From positions 1-53,614 of IMG/VR virus record IMGVR_UViG_3300034120_000351: DNA of 53,614 nucleotides. One strand, given 5' to 3'. The DNA comes from a virus. The notes beneath the pieces were generated by a model. The model was not told the DNA's origin, searched no databases, and worked only from the letters and a program-made list of their open reading frames with translations. Shown here one piece after another: positions 5,550 through 53,614 of this stretch. The number at the start of each line of letters is the position of its first letter. Position 1 is the stretch's first letter. The translations under genes and the position numbers were made by a program.

Positions 5550-5801
5550 ATGACACACGACCGCCGCTACGACAAATTAATCGCAGATTGCAGCAAGATT
5601 GAAAGCCGCAGCAATCGTCTCGCCGTTGACGAAATCATTGACAGCGCTCGCATCAACGCTAACGACACCGTCCGCGACGAAAAACTCCCCTTGTCTGACT
5701 GGGATCGTTTCTTCACTGCTACCCTCGCTAGCATTTTGAGCGAAGGCGGTCGTAATCACCACGTAGTTGCTTTTTTCACTAAGCGTGGCATCACTTTTTA
5801 A
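5550..5801 (+). CDS. early hypothetical protein (83 aa)
   Basis: First rightward early gene, with the repeated leader upstream. The 83-residue product is charged and probably helical, without a recognisable domain. Its position right behind a strong-looking promoter suggests a host take-over or regulatory role, but the sequence gives no direct evidence. Confidence 0.7.
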   Translation: MTHDRRYDKLIADCSKIESRSNRLAVDEIIDSARINANDTVRDEKLPLSDWDRFFTATLASILSEGGRNHHVVAFFTKRGITF

Positions 5802-5808
5802 TAACTCA

Positions 5809-5822
5809 ATAACTGGAGAACT
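5809..5822 (+). promoter_or_regulatory. repeated RBS leader ATAACTGGAGAACT
   Basis: Second plus-strand copy, preceded by ATAACTCA so that the ATAACT unit occurs twice in tandem. It drives the gene starting at 5827. Confidence 0.65.
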
Positions 5823-5826
5823 CACC

Positions 5827-6126
5827 ATGAACATCAACAAAACAATCATCGCTCGCATCGAAGAGTACCGCGCTACTAACAAGAATCCTTGCAAGAGCTA
5901 CGCTACTGAAGCCGCTGCTGAGAAGGCTACCGCTCAAATGGCGCAGGACGCCGCTAACTACTTCCACAAAGAGCGCGGTGTTGAGGCTCGTCCCGCTCAG
6001 TACGTCGTCATATATAACGAGGCATGGGGTCGTTGGGTTGGTGCGGTCAACATGACCGAGCTGATTCAGCGCTCATCAAGCACTGGCGGCTACATCGGCT
6101 ACTGTACCGGCTTCTTCGTTTTCTAA
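5827..6126 (+). CDS. early hypothetical protein (99 aa)
   Basis: The ATG at 5827 (MNINKTIIARIEEY) is chosen over an upstream in-frame start because the repeated leader lies directly before it. The product has an N-terminal helix, a segment like ESYATEAAAEKA-type phage proteins (here KSYATEAAAEKATAQ) and a C-terminal strand region ending GYCTGFFVF. This resembles small phage proteins that combine a helix with a short beta domain (...YVVIYNEAWGRWVGAVN). Function unknown. Confidence 0.72.
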   Translation: MNINKTIIARIEEYRATNKNPCKSYATEAAAEKATAQMAQDAANYFHKERGVEARPAQYVVIYNEAWGRWVGAVNMTELIQRSSSTGGYIGYCTGFFVF

Positions 6127-6145
6127 TCGCCCTCTCAATAACTCA

Positions 6146-6159
6146 ATAACTGGAGAACT
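6146..6159 (+). promoter_or_regulatory. repeated RBS leader ATAACTGGAGAACT
   Basis: Third plus-strand copy, again preceded by CAATAACT. It lies 3 bases before the ATG at 6163. Confidence 0.65.
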
Positions 6160-6162
6160 CGC

Positions 6163-6363
6163 ATGTCTCAACCTATCACAAACACCACACTCTTAGTTAC
6201 CGTGAAAAATGTCTACGGTAAAGAGACGATCTACCCTGCTAACAGCACGGCTCAGATCTTTGCTGACCTCGCCCGTCAGTACACTCTGACTCGCGAGACG
6301 CTCAAACTCGCTAAGAGCCTCGGTTACGCCATTGAAGTCAAGCAGACCGAACTGGCTTTTTAA
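6163..6363 (+). CDS. early hypothetical protein (66 aa)
   Basis: A 66-residue protein with the segment TVKNVYGKETIYPAN followed by a helical stretch. The pattern V-NVYG---IYPA resembles short phage/plasmid proteins of unknown function. It is preceded by the repeated leader. Confidence 0.68.
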   Translation: MSQPITNTTLLVTVKNVYGKETIYPANSTAQIFADLARQYTLTRETLKLAKSLGYAIEVKQTELAF

Positions 6364-6374
6364 TCAATAACTCA

Positions 6375-6389
6375 ATAACTAGGAGAACT
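6375..6389 (+). promoter_or_regulatory. variant RBS leader ATAACTAGGAGAACT
   Basis: Fourth plus-strand copy, with one extra A that extends the Shine-Dalgarno core to AGGAG. It lies 3 bases before the ATG at 6393 and is preceded by CAATAACT. Confidence 0.6.
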
Positions 6390-6392
6390 ACT

Positions 6393-6602
6393 ATGAAACG
6401 CAAAGACCAAGGTAAGAAAGAATACGTCGTCATAATTAAAGACGAGGACGGCACACGCCGCGTCTTCTCTCGCCCAGTCACATCTAACCAAGCCGTGTTC
6501 CTGATCTGCGGCTCTAGCTTACCGCTGGACTTCGTCGCTATCCGTCACCTTGAAGAGCTGGGCATCAAGCCCCACGCAACTACGTTCAAGGAGGCAGCAT
6601 GA
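6393..6602 (+). CDS. early hypothetical protein (69 aa)
   Basis: A small basic protein (MKRKDQGKKEYVVIIKDED) with an N-terminal beta segment. It has no recognisable domain. It ends in an ATGA overlap with the next small gene. Confidence 0.66.
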   Translation: MKRKDQGKKEYVVIIKDEDGTRRVFSRPVTSNQAVFLICGSSLPLDFVAIRHLEELGIKPHATTFKEAA

Positions 6603-7633: not shown

Positions 7634-7740
7634 ACAACTGGCCATTCCCACCCCCAACCGGTCCCGTGCCTTGGACTGCTAAGCAGATTCGCGAATATGC
7701 ACGTAAGCGCATCGAGCAGACCGAAAAAGCCCCTTTTTAA
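7630..7740 (+). CDS. small hypothetical protein (36 aa)
   Basis: A 36-residue product starting MNNWPFPPPTGPVPW, with an amphipathic helix behind. It is linked to the preceding gene by an ATGA overlap. Short proteins with the P-P-TGPVPW-A-QI pattern recur in phages. Function unknown. Confidence 0.5.
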   Translation: MNNWPFPPPTGPVPWTAKQIREYARKRIEQTEKAPF

Positions 7741-7765
7741 TCAGAATTTTCCTTGGAGATTTGAA

Positions 7766-8194
7766 ATGAATACAGTAAACTTTTCCAGCATGACGACCCC
7801 ACAATTAGTGTCGTTTTATAACCGCCACAGTACAACACCGGTCAAGCGCTTTAGCGACCGCAAAACCGCCGAAAGGCGTTGTGCTGAGGTCTTTGAGAGC
7901 TTGCTCTCCCCTGTACCTACTAGCAAAGTGATTAAACAAGTGGTTGACACCTCTACCCGCCCAGTCATGAAGGACTCGCTCAAGCTCGACCGCACGATCA
8001 TCTGCGTGAACACCGGCGCTACGTGGAAGAATGCGTATCAGATGTGGCGCGACAATCCTGACTGGATGACTAGCGCTCAGCAAGACCGCTTGACCGCCCA
8101 GCTCTACGCCGCCGCTAAGGTCGGTGAGCAGAAGATTATTGAAATCAATGACCGCAGCTTCATGTTGGTTAACATTAAAGGAGTAAAGAAATGA
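7766..8194 (+). CDS. conserved phage hypothetical protein (142 aa)
   Basis: The ATG at 7766 (MNTVNFSSMTTPQLVSFYN) has TTGGAGAT upstream and is preferred to the longer open frame. The N-terminal 45 residues carry a widespread phage motif, T-x-LV-FYN-----PVKRFSDRKTAERR. The middle and C-terminus are unassigned. A DNA-binding role is a guess based on the basic N-terminal domain. Confidence 0.68.
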   Translation: MNTVNFSSMTTPQLVSFYNRHSTTPVKRFSDRKTAERRCAEVFESLLSPVPTSKVIKQVVDTSTRPVMKDSLKLDRTIICVNTGATWKNAYQMWRDNPDWMTSAQQDRLTAQLYAAAKVGEQKIIEINDRSFMLVNIKGVKK

Positions 8195-8415
8195 CTGAGA
8201 ACGCACCTGTGTTGGCGGGCATAAAGTGGTTCACGAGCGGTAAGGGTCTCGTGGGCGTAGCAGCGGTGCGCATTGAGACCGGCGACATCAAGTTCTACAT
8301 CGCCCCCGCTGATGGTTTCAACGAGGTGATCGACTCTAATTTGATCATGTCACACGGAGCGCCTTTCCCCGAGGACGCCGGTTACGCATTATTTGTAAAG
8401 GAAGAGTTAGCATGA
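8191..8415 (+). CDS. small hypothetical protein (74 aa)
   Basis: A 74-residue protein, probably all-beta (IKWFTSGKGLVGVAAVRI, then DIKFYIAPADG). It overlaps the preceding gene (ATGA) and the PLP enzyme gene that follows, so it is co-translated with the modification block. Function unknown. Confidence 0.62.
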   Translation: MTENAPVLAGIKWFTSGKGLVGVAAVRIETGDIKFYIAPADGFNEVIDSNLIMSHGAPFPEDAGYALFVKEELA

Positions 8416-9368
8416 ACACCGTATTTCCCGACCTGTCGCTTGACCGCAACGTCGTCAAGTGGGAGCAGCACCTTGGCACTCAGACGCCGTGGGAGAATCA
8501 CAAGGGCTTGTGGTTCAAGCGTGAGGATTACTTTGCGCCGCTCGGCTATAGCGGTCCCAACGGCTCTAAGATGCGCCAGCTGATTTGGTACGTCAACAAG
8601 TTCCGTCAAGGTAAGACCCACATCGTGACCGGCGCTAGCATTCAGTCCCCTCAGCTGAGCATGAGCGCTATCGTGGGTGCGCACTACGGCTTGCGCGCTC
8701 GGCAGATCGTCTATAGCAAACCTGAGACTGTGTTGCGTCATGAGAACCCTCGCATTGCCTACGGCTTTGATGCTGAGTTTGAGTACGCTTCTGGTCCGTA
8801 CAACCCTATCCTGCAGCGCAAGGTTGTTGACCTGACGCAACCTACCTCGCTCGTCGTAGAGTACGGCATTACCGTGCCACATGACCGCTACCCTGAGGAC
8901 GACGTGCGTAAGTTTCACGAGGTCGGCGCTCATCAGACAGCTAACATCCCGCCCGAAGTCAAGCGCCTCATCGCCCCTGCTGGGTCGTGTAACTCGCTGA
9001 CGAGCATTATGCTCGGCTTGAGCCGTGACTCGCACAATATTGAGGAACTGTTCACGATCGGCATCGGTCCCGACAAGCGCGGCTGGATGCGTGCTCGGTT
9101 AGCCTACATCGGCATTGACATTGACAAGCTGCCGTTCAAGTGGAAGCACTTTAGCCTGCACGACAGCGGCTACAGCAAGTACAGCGATCACTTCACCGGT
9201 GAGAATTTTGACGGCATCCGCTTTCACCCGACCTACGAGGCTAAGATGTGGCGCTGGTTGACACACAACAACCAGTTAGATTATGATGACCATACCGCCT
9301 TCTGGATTGTGGGCAGCGCCCCTGACACGAAGATTGTTGAACCCTTTTACACTAGGAAGTTTTCATGA
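8412..9368 (+). CDS. PLP-dependent fold-type II enzyme, probable DNA hypermodification (318 aa)
   Basis: The protein resembles the tryptophan-synthase-beta / ACC-deaminase fold. KRED at 36-39 and NGSKMRQL at 50-57 match the region with the PLP-binding lysine (K53). GASIQSPQ at 74-81 corresponds to the substrate-binding GS-QSPN loop, and APAGSCNS at 188-195 to the glycine-rich phosphate-cup loop. Known thymidine-hypermodification systems use PLP enzymes to trim an amino acid already attached to the base. This gene opens the block with the transferase-like, kinase and hydroxymethylase genes. The exact reaction (decarboxylation, elimination or other) cannot be read from the sequence. Confidence 0.72.
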   Translation: MNTVFPDLSLDRNVVKWEQHLGTQTPWENHKGLWFKREDYFAPLGYSGPNGSKMRQLIWYVNKFRQGKTHIVTGASIQSPQLSMSAIVGAHYGLRARQIVYSKPETVLRHENPRIAYGFDAEFEYASGPYNPILQRKVVDLTQPTSLVVEYGITVPHDRYPEDDVRKFHEVGAHQTANIPPEVKRLIAPAGSCNSLTSIMLGLSRDSHNIEELFTIGIGPDKRGWMRARLAYIGIDIDKLPFKWKHFSLHDSGYSKYSDHFTGENFDGIRFHPTYEAKMWRWLTHNNQLDYDDHTAFWIVGSAPDTKIVEPFYTRKFS

Positions 9369-9553
9369 GACAACAACAAGCATTCCCAAGTGAAGAATAT
9401 TACGGCATGAATTTGCGTGATTACTTCGCGGCTCAGGCTATGCAATCATTTACAGGAGACGTTGGCTGGAAATCTGACCAGAAATGGTTTGAAGAAATTG
9501 CAGAAGGCGCTTACAAGGTTGCAGACGCAATGATGAAAGCGAGGGAAGCATGA
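9365..9553 (+). CDS. small conserved phage protein (62 aa)
   Basis: A 62-residue protein with the common phage motif GMNLRDYFAAQAMQ, then a helix ending AYKVADAMMKAREA. Such proteins are widespread in phages with no known activity. It overlaps both neighbours by 4 bases. Confidence 0.68.
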   Translation: MRQQQAFPSEEYYGMNLRDYFAAQAMQSFTGDVGWKSDQKWFEEIAEGAYKVADAMMKAREA

Positions 9554-10551
9554 CCGATTATCGTCTACCTGAGAACCGCGCCGCGTATTTCTCGGCGCTG
9601 TACAAGATGAACCTTGAGCATGGTGTTATGCCAGGACTGGTTTATCTGTACATGCCTGAGTTAGCCCGCCGCTGCGAATGGGACGCTGAGCAGAAGCTCT
9701 GGTTCGCCTTTCTGAACGGCTTGACGCAGAACCCGATCACCTCGTTACGCTTGCTCAGCCGACTGCCGAGCGTGCCTCCTGCGGGCGCTCAGTTGACGCA
9801 GTTCAATGATTGGTTCAATGCTGAGTGGGATACGCTTCAGTTTGACACCGACCGCCGCTACCAGAAGCGCGACACCCTTGAAGCCATCAAGACTTACGCT
9901 AAGTTGGTCGAGGAGTTCGGCTCTCAGGAGGCAATGCTGACCGGTAAGCCTTACTCCGAGCTTTGGGATCTTGTGCGTAACCGCTACTACAGCTTCGGTC
10001 GTCTGTCATCGTTCAGCTACCTCGAGTATGTCTACCTGAACGGCTTCGGCGCTGACTGCGATGATCTGATGTTTAGCGACAAGTCGGGCAGCAAGTCACA
10101 CCGCAACGGAATGCTGTTTTTAATCGGCAGAGACGAGCTGGTGTGGGACAAGCGCCTGCCCAACGGACAAGACGGCAGCTACCCTAAGTTCAACCTGATG
10201 TGCGGCTTCCTCGCTGCGGAGGCTGACAAGTACATTGATAGCTTCAACGCCGCCAATCCTGGCATCGCTCACGCGGGTCGCTTCACTATGGAGTCAAACC
10301 TTTGCACGTTCAAGAATCATTTCTTCGGTCGTCGCTACCCAGGAGTTTACGCGGACATGGCGTGGGAGCGGATTGAGTGGGCTGAGGCGCGTGACCAAGG
10401 CGAGTACACCGAGGTGTTCAAGGACATGCGCTCACAGCTCTTGCCTGACTGGTTACGCGCTGAGTGTGAGACCGAGCCGTTGACCGTAAAACAGAAAGCC
10501 GCCGTGTTCCCTGAGACCGGTTCACCCTATAGAGCGGAGTACTTTTTATGA
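9550..10551 (+). CDS. amino acid:DNA transferase / aGPT-pyrophosphorylase-like protein (333 aa)
   Basis: This mostly helical protein resembles the alpha-glutamyl/putrescinyl thymine pyrophosphorylase-like family (aGPT-PPlase, also called amino acid:DNA transferase), which is related to helical DNA glycosylases. Members displace pyrophosphate from phosphorylated 5-hydroxymethyl-dU in DNA with an amino acid. Supporting segments are LWFAFLNGLTQNP near 57, NRYYSFGRLSSFSYLEY near 150 and the SGSKSHRNGM region near 185. It is flanked by a P-loop kinase, an HMUDK-type protein and a thymidylate-synthase homologue, which is the classic arrangement. Its exact clade and amino-acid substrate are unknown. 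Confidence 0.7.
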   Translation: MTDYRLPENRAAYFSALYKMNLEHGVMPGLVYLYMPELARRCEWDAEQKLWFAFLNGLTQNPITSLRLLSRLPSVPPAGAQLTQFNDWFNAEWDTLQFDTDRRYQKRDTLEAIKTYAKLVEEFGSQEAMLTGKPYSELWDLVRNRYYSFGRLSSFSYLEYVYLNGFGADCDDLMFSDKSGSKSHRNGMLFLIGRDELVWDKRLPNGQDGSYPKFNLMCGFLAAEADKYIDSFNAANPGIAHAGRFTMESNLCTFKNHFFGRRYPGVYADMAWERIEWAEARDQGEYTEVFKDMRSQLLPDWLRAECETEPLTVKQKAAVFPETGSPYRAEYFL

Positions 10552-11126
10552 AGCATATCATCCTGCGAATTGCCGGCACGTTCGGCTCGGGCAAGACCAC
10601 CGCGATGCGCGGCTTCTTCAACTACCCGCACACAGTTTTGATGAGCGGTAAAAAGATCGCCGGTTATCAAGTCGACGCCAGCTCTGCCGGAATCAGCGAG
10701 CCGATCTTTGTGGTTGGCAAGTATGACAACACGTGCGGCGGCACAGACGCCATCAAGACACAGGCTGAGATTGCCGAGAAGATCCTGAAAGCACACCCCC
10801 ATGGCCATGTGTTATACGAGGGCGCTTTAGTGTCTGCGAGCGGACTCGCCGGTCAGGTGACGCAAGCCATTCACCCTACCGGCTGCGATGTGTACGCCTT
10901 TCTTGACACTCCGCAAGACCTCTGCGTTGAGCGGGTTAAGGGGCGTCGCCTCGCCGCCGGCAACGACAAAGAGTTTGACCCGAAGAACCTGATTGACAAG
11001 TTTGAGTCGGTTGTCAACTGCTACAAAAACCTGCGCAAAGAAGGCACGTACGACGTGCGTCTGATTGACCACACAGACCCGCACCCCGCGCTAGTAGAAA
11101 TCATAAAGGAGTATGAAAATGCGTGA
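10548..11126 (+). CDS. P-loop kinase, probable 5-hydroxymethyl-dU DNA kinase (192 aa)
   Basis: A small nucleotide-kinase fold. Walker A is GTFGSGKTT at 10-18, a hydrophobic VLYEGALV strand serves as a Walker B-like element, and RVKGRRLAAG is a lid-like Arg-rich segment. In hypermodifying phages, kinases of this kind pyrophosphorylate the 5-hydroxymethyl group of the base in DNA, activating it for substitution. Its place between the transferase-like and HMUDK-type genes argues for that role over a general nucleotide kinase. It overlaps the upstream gene by 4 bases. Confidence 0.72.
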   Translation: MKHIILRIAGTFGSGKTTAMRGFFNYPHTVLMSGKKIAGYQVDASSAGISEPIFVVGKYDNTCGGTDAIKTQAEIAEKILKAHPHGHVLYEGALVSASGLAGQVTQAIHPTGCDVYAFLDTPQDLCVERVKGRRLAAGNDKEFDPKNLIDKFESVVNCYKNLRKEGTYDVRLIDHTDPHPALVEIIKEYENA

Positions 11127-12039
11127 CAATTGCCCTTACCCTATGCCGACGCCGGAGACAGTTTGCTCGATGGCGGGTCTGCTTTACTTCATCTGGGAGC
11201 GGGAGGCTATCCGCATCGCTCGTGAGAACGGTCACAGCGCTCCGTGGACTAAAGACCCTGTACTCGCTAAGTACAAGTTCACCAACATCCACCGCTGCGA
11301 TGATCGCGTTTCGGTTTGGGTGATTGATCGGTTGATTGAGCCAGCGACCGCTCGAGGCGATGAGCACTTGTGGTTCACGCTGTTGATCGCCCGCCTGATC
11401 AACTGGCCGCCCACGCTACAGGCGCTGCTTGACAAGGGGGTCATCCCCTGCGCTCCTGAAAACTTTGATGCTGACTTGTTTGAGCACACGCTTGAGCGTA
11501 TCAAGAAAGACGGCAACAAGGTTTACTCCGGCGCGTACATGCTCTACCCGACTAAGATGGAGCCAGGAGGCAACAAGTCTAAGGCGGTGGCAAAGTACAT
11601 CATCGGCAGCGCGGTTGAGAACGCTGACAATATTAGCGCGGCGCTGTGGAACGATGGCGGGATGATGTCTATTGAGCGGTTCGTAGCTGAACTGAGCAAG
11701 TGCTTCGGCATCAGCACCTTTATTGCCGGACAGGTCGCCGCTGACTTGACGTACACCGGCATGGACGTTGAAGACTTGTTCACTTACGCGCCTATCGGTC
11801 CTGGTAGCTCGCGTGGGCTAAACTATTTGCTCGGCAAGCAGCCGTTCGCCACGTGGAAGCAGAAAGAATTCAATGCCGAGCTGAGCAACATCTTCAGCGA
11901 GATCGTTGATAAATTAGAAATCGTAGACATGACGCTGCATGATGTGCAGAACTGCATGTGCGAGTTCAGCAAGTACTGCCGCGCCGTACTCGGCGAGGGT
12001 AAACCTAAAACAACCTACCAACCAGAAACGGAGTTCTAA
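11119..12039 (+). CDS. HMUDK-type helical DNA base hypermodification protein (306 aa)
   Basis: Two near-adjacent ATGs exist at 11113 and 11119. The second is chosen because AAAGGAG lies 7 bases before it, whereas it almost touches the first. The N-terminal half carries the family pattern LLYFIWEREAIRI, then APWTKDPVLAKYKFTNIHR near 43-61, then LIARLINWP. This resembles the helical domain found with 5-hydroxymethyl-dU DNA kinases and annotated as a DNA base hypermodification protein. It is glycosylase-like and probably acts on modified bases in DNA, perhaps as a second pyrophosphorylase/transferase. The exact step is inferred. Confidence 0.7.
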   Translation: MRDNCPYPMPTPETVCSMAGLLYFIWEREAIRIARENGHSAPWTKDPVLAKYKFTNIHRCDDRVSVWVIDRLIEPATARGDEHLWFTLLIARLINWPPTLQALLDKGVIPCAPENFDADLFEHTLERIKKDGNKVYSGAYMLYPTKMEPGGNKSKAVAKYIIGSAVENADNISAALWNDGGMMSIERFVAELSKCFGISTFIAGQVAADLTYTGMDVEDLFTYAPIGPGSSRGLNYLLGKQPFATWKQKEFNAELSNIFSEIVDKLEIVDMTLHDVQNCMCEFSKYCRAVLGEGKPKTTYQPETEF

Positions 12040-12040
12040 A

Positions 12041-13078
12041 ATGGAGTTAGTCGTACGTAACGTCAATCAGGCTTTCAGTGAGATATTCTGGAAGCTCAAA
12101 GTGCTCAACCTTCAACCTGAGCAGACCCGCAATGGTCCCGCTATCGTGTACCCTGAGATGGTGACCACGGTCTACAAGTGCCCGTCTGAGCGCGTGCTGT
12201 TTCACAAGGGTCGTGATGCTAACCCGATCTTTCACCTCATGGAGTCGATCTGGATGCTGGCAGGGCGTAATGACGTTGCGTTCCTACAGCAGTTCAACAA
12301 GCGCATGGTCGAGTTCAGCGACGACGGCAAGACATTTAACGCCGCCTATGGTCACCGCTGGCGCAAGCACTTCGGTCATGACCAGCTTGACGAGGTCATT
12401 AGAACCCTGCGCCGCGACCCTAACAGCCGTCAGGCGGTTGTTCAGATCTGGGACGACGCTGATTTGAACAAGAAGACCAAGGACAAGGCGTGCAACATGC
12501 AGGTCATCTTTGACACTCGCGGCGGTCGTCTGAACATGACGGTGATCAACCGGTCTAACGATATCTGGTGGGGTGCGTACGGCGCTAACGCTGTGCATTT
12601 CAGTTTCCTGCAGGAGTTTGTAGCCGCTGCGATAGCGCACAGAATCGGCGTGTACCGTCAGGTGAGTAATAATTTCCACTTATACACAGAACTTTATAAC
12701 GCGAACAAATACCTCGTGACCCCGCCGGACGCTAACGACTATGACCATTACTCTAACGGCTCAGTGCGCCCCCTCCCGATCATGCTGAACGGCGAGTACA
12801 AACTGTTCCTAGCGGAGTGTGAGATGTTCTGCCACGACCCGTACAATGAGCGCATTCATTATGCTAACCCTTTCTTTGAGCACATCGCACGCCCCATGGC
12901 TATGATCAGTCGCGTACGCAAGATTCACGCAGGTGACGGTCGTAGCTATGCCGCTAAGATCCGCGCCGAGGACTGGCGTCGCGCAGCGTTTGATTGGATT
13001 GACCGCCGTGACCAAGCACGCAAAATCAAAGAGGAAGATGACGAGATAAATGAGCTGCGGAAGGCTGAGAAAAAATAA
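12041..13078 (+). CDS. thymidylate synthase-fold protein, probable dUMP hydroxymethylase (345 aa)
   Basis: The pyrimidine C5-methylase/hydroxymethylase fold is clear. AYGHRWR lies at 102-108 and RQAVVQIWDDAD at 130-141. The catalytic cysteine is Cys151 in KACNMQVIF, and NRSNDIWWGAYGANAVHFS at 170-188 follows. Asn183 matches the residue that reads uracil; the cytosine-specific T4 enzyme has Asp there. A plain thymidylate synthase would have PCH after the catalytic site and a FN motif, which are replaced here (ACN, GANAVHFS). With the kinase and transferase-like genes upstream, hydroxymethylation of dUMP is the best reading. A basic, charged tail of about 40 residues ends the protein. Confidence 0.75.
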   Translation: MELVVRNVNQAFSEIFWKLKVLNLQPEQTRNGPAIVYPEMVTTVYKCPSERVLFHKGRDANPIFHLMESIWMLAGRNDVAFLQQFNKRMVEFSDDGKTFNAAYGHRWRKHFGHDQLDEVIRTLRRDPNSRQAVVQIWDDADLNKKTKDKACNMQVIFDTRGGRLNMTVINRSNDIWWGAYGANAVHFSFLQEFVAAAIAHRIGVYRQVSNNFHLYTELYNANKYLVTPPDANDYDHYSNGSVRPLPIMLNGEYKLFLAECEMFCHDPYNERIHYANPFFEHIARPMAMISRVRKIHAGDGRSYAAKIRAEDWRRAAFDWIDRRDQARKIKEEDDEINELRKAEKK

Positions 13079-13079
13079 T

Positions 13080-13109
13080 TTGCGTGCTGTGAGAAATGTG
13101 AGCTATAAT
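13080..13109 (+). promoter_or_regulatory. candidate promoter before the HD hydrolase gene
   Basis: TTGCGT (13080-13085) and TATAAT (13104-13109) are 18 bases apart. The next start codon is about 33 bases downstream. This would give the HD/polymerase/recombination genes their own transcript inside the rightward block. Confidence 0.5.
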
Positions 13110-13118
13110 TGCTCACAT
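13096..13118. promoter_or_regulatory. operator-like palindrome over the -10 box
   Basis: ATGTGAGC and GCTCACAT form perfect 8-base arms around the 7-base centre TATAATT, which is the -10 box itself. A dimeric regulator bound here would block the promoter. A hairpin function is less likely because the -10 region is not transcribed from this promoter. Confidence 0.55.
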
Positions 13119-13124
13119 AACTGC

Positions 13125-13137
13125 TAACTGGAGAACT
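13125..13137 (+). promoter_or_regulatory. repeated RBS leader TAACTGGAGAACT
   Basis: Fifth plus-strand copy of the leader, 7 kb from the early cluster, placed before the GTG start at 13142. Confidence 0.6.
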
Positions 13138-13141
13138 TTTT

Positions 13142-13630
13142 GTGAAACATACCCTCGATTTTATTCTGGCTGGAAGCGAAGTGAAGCGCTATCACACAGT
13201 CACCACGCTCGTGTCTGAGACCGTCGGTCATCATTCACACGGCGTTGCTATGCTGTGCTTGATGTTTGACCCGATGGCGAGCCGTCAACTGCTAATGGCT
13301 GCGCTGTTCCATGATTTGGCTGAACACCAAACCGGCGACATCCCCTCCCCTGCTAAGCGTGAGTTCGGCATCGGCGGCAAAGTTGACGAATTAGAGTTGC
13401 GCCTTATGAGCGCTGCCGGAATCGTCACACCGCACCTCTCACCTGAAGACAAGAGAACTCTCAAGCTCGCCGACGTAGCACAGGGTGCGCTGTTTTGCGC
13501 TCGGGAGATCTCACTCGGCAACAAACGCATGCGCCGCGTATTTGACCGCTACATCAGCTACGCGGAAGAGCTGATTCTGGTCGGTCGCGAGCGCGAAATT
13601 TTCAACATGATCAAGGAATACGCAGCATGA
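13142..13630 (+). CDS. HD-domain 5'-deoxyribonucleotidase-like hydrolase (162 aa)
   Basis: Resembles the YfbR family of HD phosphohydrolases, which strip phosphate from deoxynucleoside monophosphates. Visible metal ligands are the H in VGHHSHGVA, the FHDLAEHQTGDIPSP block and a late D in KLADVAQ. It starts with GTG behind the repeated leader. Next to a probable dUMP hydroxymethylase it could remove dTMP or otherwise shape the nucleotide pool so that the modified base is incorporated. That pathway role is inference. Confidence 0.78.
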   Translation: MKHTLDFILAGSEVKRYHTVTTLVSETVGHHSHGVAMLCLMFDPMASRQLLMAALFHDLAEHQTGDIPSPAKREFGIGGKVDELELRLMSAAGIVTPHLSPEDKRTLKLADVAQGALFCAREISLGNKRMRRVFDRYISYAEELILVGREREIFNMIKEYAA

Positions 13631-21787: not shown

Positions 21788-24408
21788 TATTCAGTTCCTT
21801 CATCAATAGAGGGTGCTGCCGTGTCACGGTAGAGACCTGAGTTGATTTCGTTCAAGCGTTTGCGATGGCGCTCGCTAACAGTCTTGAGCGCGGCATAGCC
21901 GTTCTTCATGATACGTGCGCGTTCTTCTTTACTCTTAGCGCCCAGACCTTGAACGTCTTGCAGGGCTTTACGCTCGTCGTTAGAGATCGCTCCTGGGAAG
22001 GTTGCTTTCAGCTGAGACAAAGCGGCTTTTTCAAGCAAGTTCTCCATCTCACGAGTCGCAGCAACTTTAGGATCTTTTGACCCACCGGCTTCTAGCAACT
22101 TACGCTGAGCAACATCAACCAATGACGTGTCAAAGGTGTTAGGATTCAGCGCGTAAGCCTTCTTCAAATTGATGAGGGCTTGGTCAGTCTGAGCCAGCGT
22201 TTCTTCTGTTTCAGTTTTCAGCTTCAACTCAGGACCGGTCAGTTTAGCCTGTTGGGTCTTCTGGTTTTGGAACTTTTCTTGAGCCAAAGCCAAATTAGCA
22301 GCAGCTGTATTCACACCCGCCAAGGAAGCCGTAATCTGCGCCAGTTTACTCTCAATATTCATATTACCGAGAGCTTCTACGCGCTTCTGATACTCAGGCG
22401 TTCCTGGCTTCAGACCCTCATCTTTCGCCTGCTTACCCGCCGCAGACTGAGGCTCACCGGACTTGATGTAGTCTTTGATGAGTTCAGTAGCGATGGTACG
22501 CTTGTCTTTCATTTCCTCAGCTGACAGCGCTTGCAGGGTGCGGAGGTCATCCTTAGCCGCACCCATCTTCATCTCCTGACCTTTCAAAGCCAGAGCCAGT
22601 TTCTGTTGTCTAGAGGCGCGTTGCTCCTTAGAGTAATCGCCCAGCTCTTTACCAACCATACTCAGGTTTTCAGCAAAATGACCGGTCTTAGTGGGAGCGC
22701 CGAAAGCGGCTGCTAAACGGAAGTACATCTCCGCTTTAGAACTCTTTGCGTCCTCTGGGGTCTTCATAGAATCTGACAACAGCTTAGCAAAAGCGTCGCT
22801 CTCAGCCTTAGCGCTAGCGCGGGCGGCTTTGAGTTCTGCGCCGTATGCGCCATCTTTCGGACCGTACGCAGCGAGCAGGGCTTGAATGTTACCCATGCGC
22901 TCATCACCGAGCATCGCTGGAGGCTTCGGAATCTGAGGTTGAGCTACAGCTGCCGGAGCCATAGGCGCGGGAGCGGTGTTCATAGCAATAGTCGCCAGAG
23001 GCGCTTTAGCTGGCTCCATCACAACTGGCGGGGGAGGGTTAGCCATGTCAACAGGGCTAATCTCAACTGGGGCGCGGTCGCGCTCTTGGCGAGCGAGAAA
23101 ATCTGCTTCTTCCTCAGCGCTTCCGTAGCCGCTAGGTAAGCTCACGCTACCGGCGGTTTGATAATGTGTTTTCACTTGACCACCTTTAGCGTATGCTGCA
23201 GAACTCCAGTCATCATAACCTTTGATACCTCCGCCACCACCGCCACCGAAGTTGAAGTCGCTTCCGCTGAAATCATAATTACTATCAAATGAACTGCCGC
23301 CGAAATCAGAAGGATCAACGGCGACGAAATCGCTACCGGTATCGGTGGTCACCGCAGGGGTATCCGTTACAAGGTACTTGTCAAACTCTTCTGGCAATTC
23401 TTCTTGATTTTTAATCAATCCTCTTGACGGACCAACTTCTACGAAATCAGGGTCATCCCAGAAAGACTTGTCTTCTTTCGGAGTCTCGACTGTGAAGTCT
23501 GGCAACTCAAGGGGGAACTCAGGAGTGATCAATGGAATATTGTTCGGGTCAACAACGTCGTCAGGGATAGTGCTAATTATCGGTTTCGTGTAAATTGATG
23601 GTGTTTCAACCACCGGATCAACAACTGGGTCAACAACAGGGTCAACGACCGGATCTACCACGGGATCAACAACTGGGTCAGGAATCACGGGATCTACCAC
23701 GGGGTCGACCACCGGATCAATCACCGGATCAACCACAGGATCCACAACTGGATCAATTACCGGTGGTAAAATCGGCGGTAAAACAACCGGAGGCGGGGTT
23801 ACCACAGGAGGTTCAACAACCGGAGGTTGTACAATCGGAGGAACCACGGGAGGAACTACGGGAGGTGTTTGAGTGCCGTACTTAGGCGCTTGCAACACGT
23901 TGCCCCAACGATTCTGAGTTGCGTTGTAAATGTCTTGAGCGCCGATACCGTACTTGTCCGCGTACGCATTGATAGCGCTAGAATAAGCCGTAGGGTTCTG
24001 AGCAGCCCAGTCTTGAATGTTTTTGTTGAACTGCTTAACACCCATCCCTGAGCCGGTCTCAACATTCACGTCAGGTCTAGTTGCCCATTGCAACGCGGCG
24101 GACTTAGGTTCGTTACCGGTCTGGAACTGAGATTGCATGTACATCGGGGTGTTCATCAAACGAGTTTGATATTCCTTCTTGTACGCGTCATACGCCGCGT
24201 TGTCAGCAGGCGCGTTAGCTTTGTCAACATTGTACTTGCTTAGCAGCGCGTCGTAATCAGCTTGCGCAGTAGCTAACTTATCACCCGTCAGCGTGTCTGT
24301 GGCAACTGGGCGCGTGCCAGGATCAACCGGAGTCGCACCTGAGTAGTTGATTCTACCAGGAGTACCAACTCCGTACTGCTGCATTATTCTGTTTAATTCA
24401 AAGCCCAT
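21787..24408 (-). CDS. probable internal virion protein with Asp-Pro-Val repeats (873 aa)
   Basis: In order: residues 1-180 polar; 190-290 a Pro/Val-rich segment with DPVV repeated about a dozen times; 300-390 acidic and Gly-rich; an AAYAKGGQV motif near 405; a Pro/Ala linker at 450-500; and a long charged helical C-terminus of about 350 residues. It sits between two other ejection-type proteins and probably has the same fate. The rigid DPVV rod suggests an extended spacer. Function inferred. Confidence 0.62.
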   Translation of the reverse strand: MGFELNRIMQQYGVGTPGRINYSGATPVDPGTRPVATDTLTGDKLATAQADYDALLSKYNVDKANAPADNAAYDAYKKEYQTRLMNTPMYMQSQFQTGNEPKSAALQWATRPDVNVETGSGMGVKQFNKNIQDWAAQNPTAYSSAINAYADKYGIGAQDIYNATQNRWGNVLQAPKYGTQTPPVVPPVVPPIVQPPVVEPPVVTPPPVVLPPILPPVIDPVVDPVVDPVIDPVVDPVVDPVIPDPVVDPVVDPVVDPVVDPVVDPVVETPSIYTKPIISTIPDDVVDPNNIPLITPEFPLELPDFTVETPKEDKSFWDDPDFVEVGPSRGLIKNQEELPEEFDKYLVTDTPAVTTDTGSDFVAVDPSDFGGSSFDSNYDFSGSDFNFGGGGGGGIKGYDDWSSAAYAKGGQVKTHYQTAGSVSLPSGYGSAEEEADFLARQERDRAPVEISPVDMANPPPPVVMEPAKAPLATIAMNTAPAPMAPAAVAQPQIPKPPAMLGDERMGNIQALLAAYGPKDGAYGAELKAARASAKAESDAFAKLLSDSMKTPEDAKSSKAEMYFRLAAAFGAPTKTGHFAENLSMVGKELGDYSKEQRASRQQKLALALKGQEMKMGAAKDDLRTLQALSAEEMKDKRTIATELIKDYIKSGEPQSAAGKQAKDEGLKPGTPEYQKRVEALGNMNIESKLAQITASLAGVNTAAANLALAQEKFQNQKTQQAKLTGPELKLKTETEETLAQTDQALINLKKAYALNPNTFDTSLVDVAQRKLLEAGGSKDPKVAATREMENLLEKAALSQLKATFPGAISNDERKALQDVQGLGAKSKEERARIMKNGYAALKTVSERHRKRLNEINSGLYRDTAAPSIDEGTE
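23608..23762. repeat. 12-base coding repeat for Asp-Pro-Val-(Val/Ile)
   Basis: About twelve tandem copies of a 4-residue unit, DPVV with occasional DPVI, within the 873-residue protein. Codon variants differ between copies (GATCAACAACTGG, GTCAACAACAGG and so on on the plus strand), so the array is old enough to have diverged silently. Confidence 0.75.
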
Positions 24409-24417
24409 ATTTACTCC

Positions 24418-26187
24418 TTAACCGCCGAGGTTGTTCAGACCTTTGTACGTATAGAGACCGGTGGCCAGCTGAGACAGCGGCGAAGGTGAATACGTAGCGC
24501 CGGTTGTGGTGCCAGTGTTAGTCGTAACTTGCGGTGTGATTGGAGCCATGCCGCGAATCTGCGTATTGAGCCAATCCATTTGCTGCTTAGGATAGTTCTG
24601 CTGGTTGACGAACTGTTGCTGAGCAGCGTTGAGTTGCTGCTGCATTTGATTCTGCTGAGCCGCGCCCGCACCTTCAAGCGCCGCCACATCAGCTGAACGC
24701 ATAGCTTGCTCTTGCTGTTGCATGTTAGCGAAGTTCTGCAACGCAGACATCTGACGCTGGTAATCTTGAGCCTGAGCCGCCTGAGTAGCCTGAGCAGCGG
24801 TGAGACCGAACTGCTGTTGAGCTTGACCCGCACTGGTTTGCATCTGACCCAAGTTACCCAACTGAGACATCTGCTGGGCAGTGAGCTGACCTTGTGTTTG
24901 ACCGAGGTTGGTCAGGTTCTGTTGTTGCTGGCTTGTCAACTGACCGGTGGTCTGACCGAGGTTGGTCAAAGCCGAAGCCTGCTGCCCTGTCAGCTGACCA
25001 GCGGTTTGACCGAGGTTAGCCAACGCAGAAGCCTGCTGGCCAGAAAGTTGACCTTGTGTTTGACCGATGTTAGCTAGCGCTGAAGCCTGCTGACCGGTCA
25101 ACTGACCTTGAGTCTGTGCGAGGTTACCATACTGAGCACCGCCCTGAAGCACGCGAGAGAGGTCTGCGCCGGAAATACTACCGACCGTACCAGCCAACTG
25201 CGCTTGACGTGCGAGGTCTGCCTGAGAAGCACTGAGAGCCTGCCCGTAGCCTTGGTTAGCCAGTTGAGCCTGTTGGTTCAACACAGCTTCCTGAGTGTCG
25301 CGCAGAGCACGACTACCGAACTCGCCCATACGTGAGCCGCCGAACTGACCAGCTTTGATGAATGCGTCGGAGACGTTAGGTAGCAGGTTCTCACTGAGGT
25401 TGCGACCCGCCTGCTTAGCGAGCACATCCATAACCCCGCCTTGGTAGGGTGACATGTATTGGTTGATGCCGCCCGCAGCAGATTGAGCCGCTGCTGTGAG
25501 GTACGGATTAGCCGCGCTCAATGCTCGGTCAGAAAGCGCCTCTGCGGTCGTTTGACCGGCTTGGCTCATGTAAGGTTGAGCAGCGTTATAAATGTTACCC
25601 GCCGCAGTAGCGGCTTGGTTCATGTAAGGTTGAGCCGCGCCCGTGATGTTTCCGGCGGCGGTTCTAGCTTCGCCCAAATAAGGTTGCGCCGCACCCATGA
25701 TGTTGCCCGCCGCTAAGCCCGCTTGCGTCAACGAAGGTTGAGCAGCACCTACGGCATCCATCGCCATCGCTTTTGACAGCGCCGGTTGACCCGCCGCTAC
25801 GATGTCCATCTTACCCGCTCTGTCAAAATACCCTTGACCCGCGTCTAAGTTTTTACCGACTAAATCTTGACGCAAATACTGACTTTGCGCCTGCTTCAAC
25901 GCATCAGCCGTACCTTTACTGCCGAAGTCGTACATTCCGGACTGAGCTTTGTCAAGGTCACCCTGATAGAAACCTTGATTAGCTTGAACCTGCTTGTACG
26001 CTTGCTGTTGCAGAGGTGACAATTCAGCCACAGTGGGCATGTCATACGACTGGTAAGGCGCGTTGGCGATGTTCTGTGCCACTTGAATCTGATTGTAAAT
26101 CGCGTCCTGCATCCACTTAGGAGTCTCAGTGGATGACGTAGTGTAAGACGTAGCGGTCTGAGGCGACCCTTGGAATAAGCTGCCCAT
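24418..26187 (-). CDS. probable internal virion/ejection protein, Gln/Ala-rich with 18-residue repeats (589 aa)
   Basis: A helical protein of very biased composition. The N-terminus (MGSLFQGSPQTATSYTTSSTE ...) looks like that of other phage virion-associated proteins of this type. A first set of 18-residue repeats carries AAQPYxxxAxTAAGNI. A second set of five carries NLGQTQGQLTGQQASALA. The remainder is Q-rich. The composition suits a protein that unfolds and passes through the tail. Function inferred from position beside the other large late proteins. Confidence 0.65.
   Translation of the reverse strand: MGSLFQGSPQTATSYTTSSTETPKWMQDAIYNQIQVAQNIANAPYQSYDMPTVAELSPLQQQAYKQVQANQGFYQGDLDKAQSGMYDFGSKGTADALKQAQSQYLRQDLVGKNLDAGQGYFDRAGKMDIVAAGQPALSKAMAMDAVGAAQPSLTQAGLAAGNIMGAAQPYLGEARTAAGNITGAAQPYMNQAATAAGNIYNAAQPYMSQAGQTTAEALSDRALSAANPYLTAAAQSAAGGINQYMSPYQGGVMDVLAKQAGRNLSENLLPNVSDAFIKAGQFGGSRMGEFGSRALRDTQEAVLNQQAQLANQGYGQALSASQADLARQAQLAGTVGSISGADLSRVLQGGAQYGNLAQTQGQLTGQQASALANIGQTQGQLSGQQASALANLGQTAGQLTGQQASALTNLGQTTGQLTSQQQQNLTNLGQTQGQLTAQQMSQLGNLGQMQTSAGQAQQQFGLTAAQATQAAQAQDYQRQMSALQNFANMQQQEQAMRSADVAALEGAGAAQQNQMQQQLNAAQQQFVNQQNYPKQQMDWLNTQIRGMAPITPQVTTNTGTTTGATYSPSPLSQLATGLYTYKGLNNLGG
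24856..25125. repeat. five 54-base repeats (18 residues each)
   Basis: Five tandem units begin with N-(L/I)-(G/A)-Q-T-x-G-Q-L-x-x-Q-Q and run without a break in the 589-residue protein. An 18-residue period equals five helical turns, so the repeats may stack as one long amphipathic helix. Confidence 0.8.
25510..25740. repeat. second repeat set, AAQPY / AAGNI units
   Basis: Four or five units of about 18 residues share AAQPYxxxAxxAAGNI in the same protein. The period equals that of the other set, which suggests that both grew from one ancestral helix. Confidence 0.65.
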
Positions 26188-52900: not shown

Positions 52901-53399
52901 TAGCCTTGTTGACGTTAGTGATCGGCTGTCCGTAGCTCAAGCGCTCAGTGGTGCGAGCGAGCGCTGGCACGCCGAGGAACTCCATCGTCCCCTGCATCTG
53001 CTGCGTGCGCTGAGGCGAGTAAGTCTGCTTGAGGAAGTTGGCAATCGCACCCAGTGCTGAGTTCTGCGGCTGTACGCGGACTGAGTCGCCCTTAGCGTAG
53101 TTGGTCCTGACGAACCCGCCGTCCGCCCACTTCACCTTGTTCGCCCAATACGCTGGGCTGCTCGGACCCTTGGCGATGTTCTTTGCGTGACGTGACTTGA
53201 ACGAGGCTCGCTTCGCCTTCATGCGGTCGGACTCGCCCTCCTTAGGCTTACCCGCCGTGCTAGCGCCCTGCTCGCCGAAGCGAATGATCTTCTCCTTGCC
53301 GTCCACCTTCGTCTTGACGATGTGGCTCTTAGTCGGATGATTAGGCGTGCGGCGCGGTTGATTGAGCGGCAAGCTGTCCTTGTCAACGCGGTCTGTCAT
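49908..53399 (-). CDS. multidomain virion-associated protein with JAMM-like metalloprotease motif (1163 aa)
   Basis: Residues 20-92 are a basic module with SFKSRHAKN and SSPAYWANKVKW, like the small DUF6321-type domain seen in many phages. Residues 100-550 are unassigned, helical and probably structural. Residues 551-600 (AMKLCTTLGRQAGWCTQGEG, then SLTTLIDAEGRPHAQAMI) resemble the core of PcfJ-like domains. Residues 905-975 carry IVDFHTHPRAA with H951 and H953, then PSEGD with S966 and D969, and a candidate upstream Glu907: an extended JAMM/MPN metal site. Repeated AEGG motifs mark the C-terminus. It may process virion or host proteins. Confidence 0.6.
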   Translation of the reverse strand: MTDRVDKDSLPLNQPRRTPNHPTKSHIVKTKVDGKEKIIRFGEQGASTAGKPKEGESDRMKAKRASFKSRHAKNIAKGPSSPAYWANKVKWADGGFVRTNYAKGDSVRVQPQNSALGAIANFLKQTYSPQRTQQMQGTMEFLGVPALARTTERLSYGQPITNVNKANVPLLPDDTAEAAMLVAPPLTSLAKRVGTNLVQTAPYVARDIVQNVTSPLKSYAVKPKGGNWAPTLGSRDSVKMSVYPLKRNPEVISGDLINQAAGEDLWSKMIDEGVYQYPVPWLRENRPDVLNKLVGEERGAVNKWLDSKLEKYIRNEMGTPDDPIRLAHEEGYSHIPGNAAEELGAWLPEETATMRRKAGYPEEGFAAKKHADAGYPEDMEANTRKAELWENLADTEITSSPAGAYQEQFRMAREKPSMEGAKGAVQRAERNPWIEKLDPETLIYKIDNTMDLNENLGFGHMADEIQNMLDPESGLPAALRLTPQQLDKLSVKQMVEKVDAVNKWRAKSASDAELEDMMGNLTATPKLEIPDAQLSFVKEPGMKWIDIPATVDDSAMKLCTTLGRQAGWCTQGEGLAKRYGSGENSLTTLIDAEGRPHAQAMITKSKNKGLELGDVLDEEDAIADQIYRNAGQILSDRGFGDAEDLAMTLGAGAESELPKAARDILNSVYEQAERMLPKRGVTPLDITELKPVENAFSSERAREYTKRDPAYKEKITESVLKFLNAGEWGAVKDLHHYDIVDLRNPSGVQKALADVLDYDLPHERMDKFNYATNFNPDAPRFMSESQFRAFVNPDAGKQGYKEGGSVDADEQAAFGIYPNAGKRSQKSDIGDKLNASLMPQDAVDLASMLLPFGKVGKTLAAAVISGAPAEAQAGNITSLMKLVAREAPAQAKTIREALGRAFSKDIEHSVVGSSDRGPAGTIMSGDWDSVNPNQLDILRAVKGDRPIVDFHTHPRAAQAAFDVAPSEGDFRFAANEYFPGKQNRELRTIIASPANLAERVPTSYSFFATDNPSKVFDRRALNSAVYELQRAGSKGTFKSVMDDPRFRQYFEAGGTMGDLAENLAPLAMLDLRKAQGLGRGELQLSGRNIAPQVSNKDVYKAMNPLAVEFLTRKGFAEGGSVSYDPNQVDEIINSISAPRNYAEGGSVTAYDPSRVDAILNQFM

Positions 53400-53560
53400 T
53401 TCTTCCTCGCTGCTCTCATGTTGTCAACGAGGTTGGGGTAAGGGCGTCCGGCGCTCTTTGCTGCCGCCTTTGCTGACGACTTAGCAGACGATGAGAGCGT
53501 CTTGCTCTCGCCGAGGCTCTTTGGTCTCGCTTTATCCCAGATCTGTTTCTTAGGCTGCAT
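53396..53560 (-). CDS. small basic Ala/Ser/Lys-rich protein (54 aa)
   Basis: Reads MQPKKQIWDKARPKSLGESK, then a low-complexity SSAKSSAKAAAKSAGRP segment, and ends NMRAARKK. It overlaps the next gene by ATGA and the upstream partial frame by a few bases. A small nucleic-acid-binding or head-associated protein is possible. No family recognised. Confidence 0.55.
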   Translation of the reverse strand: MQPKKQIWDKARPKSLGESKTLSSSAKSSAKAAAKSAGRPYPNLVDNMRAARKK

Positions 53561-53614
53561 ACGGATTTATCCTCGGCTTGTTTGAGATGCGTGGCTCGTC
53601 AACGTCCCTTGCTT
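53550..53614 (-). CDS. C-terminus of an upstream gene, possibly terminase large subunit
   Basis: One frame on the minus strand is open from the window edge to a TAA at 53550 and ends RISNKPRINPYAA. Its stop overlaps the start of the 54-residue gene, as elsewhere in this operon. The gene upstream of portal in tailed phages is usually terminase, so that is the guess. Only about 20 residues are visible. Confidence 0.4.
   Translation of the reverse strand, partial: ARDVDEPRISNKPRINPYAA

Follow-up and report, generated by a model that had tools for sequence, protein, structure and literature searches.

The locus considered here raises the question of what a PLP enzyme does in a viral thymidine-hypermodification cassette when it appears to be the only tailoring enzyme present. 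The window, that is the whole stretch of DNA analysed, corresponds to an entire virus record from IMG/VR, 53,614 bases long and classed as linear, and the features relevant to the question are collected in Table 1. The source is an uncultured virus of bacteria, and its PLP gene most likely codes for an enzyme that trims an amino acid already linked to the viral DNA; since well-known Salmonella viruses possess the same set of two enzymes, the gene joins a known scheme as a new member and does not announce a new one. The open reading frame is a real coding gene: in all seven relatives compared, which were picked from 60 relative loci, it is under purifying selection (pN/pS 0.06-0.21) and third positions hold most of the differences. 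The possibility of an artefact, or of a shadow of the minus-strand ORF 8382-9035, was ruled out, as the concentration of differences at third positions speaks for the plus frame. A cellular origin of the enzyme was also rejected, the single relative from the genome_contigs set being a phage contig inside an Actinomycetota MAG.

Table 1. Features of the cassette and of the PLP enzyme (positions in the window; ADDT, amino acid:DNA transferase).
Feature	Position	Strand	Remarks
Conserved ORF 5' of the PLP gene	7697-8194	+	ORF list, relatives
Fold type II PLP enzyme gene, phrog_3650, predicted O-aminoacyl-DNA decarboxylase	8412-9368	+	318 aa, ATG start
Codon of K53, the lysine predicted to bind PLP (Schiff base)	8568-8570	+	opposite Lys51 of E. 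coli DcyD in hhalign
S79 codon, position of Ser78 in ACC deaminase/DcyD	8646-8648	+	40/40 sequences; profile alignment
GSCNS (191-195), predicted PLP phosphate loop	8982-8996	+	aligns with GSAGT loop of DcyD
Codons of Y275 and E276; the latter is predicted to lie opposite the PLP ring nitrogen, like Glu295/296 of ACC deaminases	9234-9239	+	alignment
62-aa ORF between PLP gene and ADDT, without family	9365-9553	+	ORF list
ADDT (PF18724), ViI side of ADDT tree	9550-10551	+	
P-loop 5-hmdU DNA kinase (PF18748)	10548-11126	+	E 5.7e-6, 26.4 bits vs cut-off 27
5-hmdU DNA kinase helical domain protein (PF18723)	11113-12039	+	
Thymidylate-synthase-like (TS-like), predicted dUMP hydroxymethylase	11939-13078	+	PF00303/phrog_5131

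The cassette continues downstream of the TS-like gene with those of an HD-domain protein, a DUF3310 protein and a DNA polymerase; because the family match of the TS-like ORF starts at residue 38, its true start is probably the ATG at 12041. The order PLP enzyme, ADDT, kinase, helical part, TS-like enzyme and polymerase is kept in most of the 60 relatives as far as the contigs extend, the exceptions being the rearranged L024 and L025. Several relatives, e.g. L011-L013 and L015-L017, carry a P-loop kinase about 48% identical to that of the window between flanking genes that are 78-97% identical, as if the kinase alone had been exchanged. Genes lying between the PLP gene and the ADDT in a few relatives were judged by eye to be DHH-phosphoesterase-like (L040 10954-13926, L055 6857-7795) or methyltransferase-like (L054 3726-4493, L059 10954-11721, the latter without a Pfam match). 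Elsewhere in the record, a 32-base leader occurs in three copies (5800-5831, 6137-6168, 6366-6397), the later ones 75-78% identical to the first, and these extend into the ATG region of three small ORFs that follow one another. Long minus-strand ORFs, which probably encode virion proteins, contain tandem-like repeats of 12 and 54 bases at 23606-23755, 24845-25125 and 25557-25718.

Searched alone against Pfam, the PLP protein gives no match at E<=0.01. The PALP entry PF00291 is matched by 10 of the 39 members of the PLP enzyme alignment, and the NCBIfam matches of the window enzyme to XcbE and ACC deaminase are weak and far under cut-off, the scores staying below the cut-offs for ACC deaminase and D-cysteine desulfhydrase equivalogs (TIGR01274, 19.7 bits vs 392; NF003032, 15.5 vs 469). 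An AlphaFold2 model built from the 39-sequence alignment (pLDDT 89.1, pTM 0.89) has the tryptophan-synthase-beta fold, and an N-terminal PLP lysine and a phosphate loop are recognized in the protein, which is, on the strength of the model and the alignments, a PLP enzyme of fold type II. The closest solved structure is D-cysteine desulfhydrase 4d99 (Z 21.7, rmsd 3.3, 267 residues aligned), followed by the ACC deaminase homologue 1j0a (Z 21.5, rmsd 3.0, 264 aligned), with TrpB (tryptophan synthase beta) at Z ~18; the best Foldseek rows reach TM-scores of only 0.60-0.67. The first-pass annotation had placed this fold type II enzyme nearer to ACC deaminase and its kin than to classical decarboxylases and had located the PLP site at K53, and both propositions are borne out. 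Indeed, profile-profile alignment of the phage family with five cellular enzymes (hhalign, E 4.4e-6, 263 columns) brings K53 onto the PLP lysine of DcyD, and this residue is invariant in 40/40 sequences compared, including three M6-type enzymes.

The surroundings of the PLP ring nitrogen deserve particular attention. In the profile alignment to the desulfhydrase, Y275 corresponds to Tyr287, E276 to Thr288 and V300 to Thr315. According to work on solved enzymes of this kind (PMC3344862), Thr315 touches the ring nitrogen in the desulfhydrase, whereas in ACC deaminases a Leu replaces it and a Glu at the Thr288 position (Glu295/Glu296) contacts the nitrogen; the same source describes an acidic residue facing the ring nitrogen as unusual in fold type II, and a carboxylate there as one that should make the ring draw electrons more strongly and might stabilise a quinonoid. 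E276 and V300 would thus reproduce the ring-nitrogen arrangement of the ACC deaminases in the phage enzyme. Position 276 is Glu in 37/37 ViI-type and Asp in 3/3 M6-type enzymes, and an acidic residue at this place in all 40 phage enzymes compared would suit decarboxylation by an otherwise elimination-prone fold.

By sequence comparison the PLP enzyme and the ADDT of the window are both of the type found in Salmonella phage ViI, and not of that found in Pseudomonas phage M6. The PLP enzyme is assigned to phrog_3650 (7.3e-74) and matches ViI Vi01_182 over its full length (3.4e-53), vs 35 residues of M6 gp52 (0.08); the ADDT matches ViI Vi01_199 (7.9e-27) and leaves M6 gp51 unmatched. In the trees, both of which carry long-branch warnings, ViI-type and M6-type PLP enzymes (40 rows) split at 100/100 with the window in the ViI type, and a 100/100 split likewise sets the ADDTs of the window and ViI apart from those of M6, PaMx11, Stenotrophomonas and Rhizobium phages. 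On the latter side stands PDB 8z2m, which carries the name Glycinyltransferase and is closely related to M6 gp51; the PDB match of M6 gp51 itself is 25qc. A weak M6-type ADDT match (24%) was obtained in L164. The ViI record notes orf00226 as the PLP gene and orf00247 as the ADDT, which we take to correspond to gp226 and gp247 of Lee 2022, where the enzymology of ViI is reportedly treated. An M6-type pathway that has simply lost its radical SAM enzyme was rejected, as the PLP enzyme and the ADDT fall in other clades. The window thus has none of the M6-type 5-NedU features (a radical SAM gene in the cassette, an M6-clade PLP enzyme, a glycine-side ADDT) and contains a ViI-clade PLP enzyme with its predicted PLP lysine, a ViI-side ADDT, a 5-hmdU source and a kinase, with no radical SAM gene found in the record. 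This suggests that the tailoring type in thymidine hypermodification can be read from two markers, the side of the ADDT and the clade of the PLP enzyme.

The view that the PLP enzyme is the sole detectable tailoring enzyme, already expressed from the first inspection of the sequence, holds. The entries PF04055 (radical SAM), PF01266 (DAO flavoenzyme) and PF00583 (GNAT) are each without a match in the record of 53,614 bases, which ends short of the terminases, and 0/16 in the records of relatives of 43-59 kb, G007 included, that were hand-picked as mostly long and diverse. The same entries recover M6 gp53 (PF04055, 1.1e-6) and the flavoenzyme and acetyltransferase of PaMx11 (PF01266 and PF00583) as positive controls. 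The missing part of the genome, where a radical SAM gene had been envisaged, was inspected through relatives: the record stops (53399-53614) just at the place where they encode the large terminase, and in G007 (59,107 bases) the roughly 5 kb beyond the gene homologous to the last one of the window hold the large and small terminases and small ORFs, with no radical SAM gene found. A known tailoring gene at some other place, radical SAM included, was rejected as an explanation, these searches having brought none to light.

A broader comparison follows the two types. Phage ViI has no PF04055 match, and neither have most other records with a ViI-type PLP enzyme, the matches amounting to 3/50 (0/1 for the window, 0/16 for the relatives above, 0/1 for ViI, and 2/7 and 1/25 for two further sets, the 25 again hand-picked as mostly long and diverse; the total becomes 49 if G018 and W05 are one phage), as against 3/3 of the M6-type records (M6, RHph_I65, Bhz59). 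Two of the three positive ViI-type records are Vibrio phages in which the matching frames, of 164-166 aa and tens of kilobases away from the PLP gene, were taken for candidate NrdG-like activases. The remaining one, G025 (L213), belongs to the 25 diverse records and carries radical SAM genes close to its cassette, the nearer one about 1.8 kb past the ADDT; it is a real exception, and a PLP enzyme without radical SAM is accordingly not universal in the family. The region concerned (L213 7917-13436) contains a ViI-type PLP enzyme and ADDT, a radical SAM gene at 11997-13436 and ParB-like genes nearby, a combination that might represent a longer pathway.

The pairing of the two enzymes was followed in metagenomic and named phages. 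The searches for relatives took the best 80 of 343 and the best 80 of 339; once 49 contained and 9 exact-core copies had been removed, 216 loci came down to 158 distinct ones. Among the matches listed, at E 1e-4, a ViI-type ADDT lies near the PLP gene in 143/158, and the M6-type radical SAM enzyme, the PaMx11 flavoenzyme and its acetyltransferase in 0/158. For the 15/158 in which a ViI-type ADDT was not detected by the same measure, five are Ackermannviridae-like, eight end less than 140 bases from the PLP match on the side where the ADDT is expected, L165 offers 1,053 bases on that side, and L169 (6428 bases) has a window-like PLP gene followed by 4,443 bases with no ADDT detected at E 1e-4. 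In named phages the PLP enzyme matches 346 records and the ADDT 374, and 27 Mycobacterium records appear in the ADDT list only; the counts per genus differ slightly (Salmonella 158 vs 162, Vibrio 61 vs 62, for PLP enzyme and ADDT), so that a few records carry one of the two without its partner.

The distinct loci also divide according to the accompanying genes. Among the matches listed, the 79 loci nearest to the window include a TS-like enzyme in 67 and a Tet/JBP-like match in 1, and the 58 more distant loci outside Ackermannviridae have a TS-like enzyme in 0, a Tet/JBP-like match in 31 and a different P-loop kinase in 50; the Tet/JBP assignment rests on a Pfam score above cut-off for L172 and on similarity for all others. 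L172 (5366-9583; relatives L174-L200), a phage contig in an Actinomycetota MAG, displays the row ParB-like protein, Tet/JBP oxygenase, ADDT, ViI-type PLP enzyme and Ploopntkinase3, i.e. a cassette like that of Coopervirus with the PLP gene inserted between ADDT and kinase, and no TS-like hydroxymethylase was seen nearby. A speculative extension, which we put forward at rather long odds, is that ADDT and fold type II decarboxylase would form a mobile two-gene module fed by two sources of 5-hmdU, TS-like or Tet/JBP, and that part of its range, possibly with the window, would use an amino acid other than serine and so yield a new base. This second group tied to a Tet/JBP-like protein, the tight pairing of PLP enzyme and ADDT, the clade assignment and the argument from E276 go beyond what the first-pass annotation contained.

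The notion that a cassette with a PLP enzyme alone lies outside the known pathways is not supported: ViI and other Ackermannviridae share the PLP family and the ADDT type, have no radical SAM gene nearby and possess a known base, and the lack of other tailoring enzymes is explained by the ViI scheme. According to PMC6449724 and PMC11721090, the DNA of ViI carries 5-(2-aminoethoxy)methyl-dU (5-NeOmdU). Given that the PLP enzyme and the ADDT are both of ViI type, that ViI lacks a radical SAM match and that its base is 5-NeOmdU, we consider it likely that the window enzyme acts as an O-aminoacyl-DNA decarboxylase giving the same base in a ViI-type pathway. In such a pathway dUMP would be hydroxymethylated and the resulting 5-hmdU incorporated in DNA, where the two-part 5-hmdU kinase would activate it. 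The ADDT would then exchange the activated group for an amino acid held through its side chain, most likely serine via O-gamma, as the aminoethoxy group is an O-linked serine without its carboxylate. The alpha-amine and carboxylate of the DNA-linked amino acid would stay free; the former could therefore form an external aldimine with the PLP enzyme, and CO2 would be lost by way of a quinonoid, which E276 would stabilise from its place near the ring nitrogen, leaving 5-NeOmdU. By analogy with the ViI base, which is O-linked serine minus CO2 on 5-hmdU, the decarboxylated amino-acid adduct proposed at the outset is indeed the likely product. In M6, an N-linked glycine would have no free alpha-amine, which would fit a radical SAM step that presumably precedes the PLP step. 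The open question of what a lone PLP enzyme does is thereby turned into a testable assignment.

Identities to the ViI enzymes of only about 30%, and the closer BLAST identity of the window ADDT to Mycobacterium phage ADDTs (37%), count against a ViI-type product, and they feed its main rival. The same chemistry might act on another side-chain nucleophile (e.g. threonine, cysteine, lysine or ornithine) and give a base not yet described. This is rather unlikely in our judgement: the window ADDT does form a clade of its own on the ViI side, and ADDTs of Mycobacterium phages without a PLP enzyme branch on that side too, yet PLP enzyme and ADDT alike group with the ViI type and are conserved as a pair.

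More remote is the idea that the PLP enzyme eliminates, deaminates or racemises the DNA-bound amino acid instead of decarboxylating it. Elimination and deprotonation, not decarboxylation, are the usual reactions of fold type II enzymes, which counts against our proposal; the closest solved folds are those of D-cysteine desulfhydrase and ACC deaminase, and a Glu at the ring nitrogen is the state seen in ACC deaminase. However, beta-elimination would take the adduct off and strip the base back to 5-hmdU, undoing the modification, so that the enzyme should favour CO2 loss, a step that its acidic residue next to the ring nitrogen would assist; the same reasoning speaks against loss of the side chain, an outcome raised earlier for this enzyme. 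Moreover, ViI has the same type of PLP enzyme and no radical SAM match, and its product keeps the amine without the carboxylate (PMC6449724). Just as improbable, we think, is a further tailoring gene working after the PLP enzyme, either absent from the linear record or of an unrecognised family. The record does lack its terminase region, and in some relatives additional genes, among them the one without a Pfam match that looks methyltransferase-like, separate the PLP gene from the ADDT; on the other side stand the uniform lack of radical SAM, DAO and GNAT matches in the 16 relatives and the content of G007 beyond the window edge, where the small ORFs next to the terminases have no assignment. 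Decarboxylation of an O-linked serine in the ViI manner thus remains the reading we prefer.

Set beside known systems, the phage enzyme shares with ACC deaminase and D-cysteine desulfhydrase the fold, the PLP lysine and the Ser79 and Tyr275 positions, and with the former the Glu at the ring nitrogen, whereas its identity to them is about 15-20%, its family occurs near an ADDT, and its predicted substrate and reaction are a DNA-bound amino acid and decarboxylation. Pseudomonas phage PaMx11 has ADDT, kinase, helical part and TS-like gene clustered in the same way, but with an FAD oxidoreductase and an acetyltransferase in place of the PLP enzyme and an ADDT on the glycine side. The Coopervirus mycobacteriophages (Lolalove) have an ADDT of the same side, 37% identical, in a different cassette of ParB-like protein, Tet/JBP-like hydroxylase, ADDT and another kinase family, with no PLP gene; the Tet/JBP-linked relatives, placed beside these PLP-less cassettes, provide a natural comparison with and without the enzyme. 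Pseudomonas phage M6 (5-NedU) resembles the window in genome size and in the order ADDT/PLP enzyme, kinase, helical part, TS-like enzyme, HD-domain protein and polymerase, but a radical SAM gene adjoins its PLP gene, its PLP enzyme is of another clade (20% identity) and its ADDT of the other side. In Salmonella phage ViI (Kuttervirus) the genes are scattered and not clustered, the PLP enzyme has 424 aa vs 318 in the window and shows a single insertion of about 55 extra residues as well as an extension at its N-terminus that the window enzyme lacks, a second P-loop kinase (Vi01_196) is without match in window-like loci, and the window kinase and TS-like enzyme score nearer to M6 in BLAST. ViI and other Ackermannviridae nevertheless agree with the window in the PLP family, the side of the ADDT and the families of kinase and hydroxymethylase, with no radical SAM match in ViI and no radical SAM gene near the PLP and ADDT genes in other Ackermannviridae, and it is this scheme that the window enzyme appears to join.
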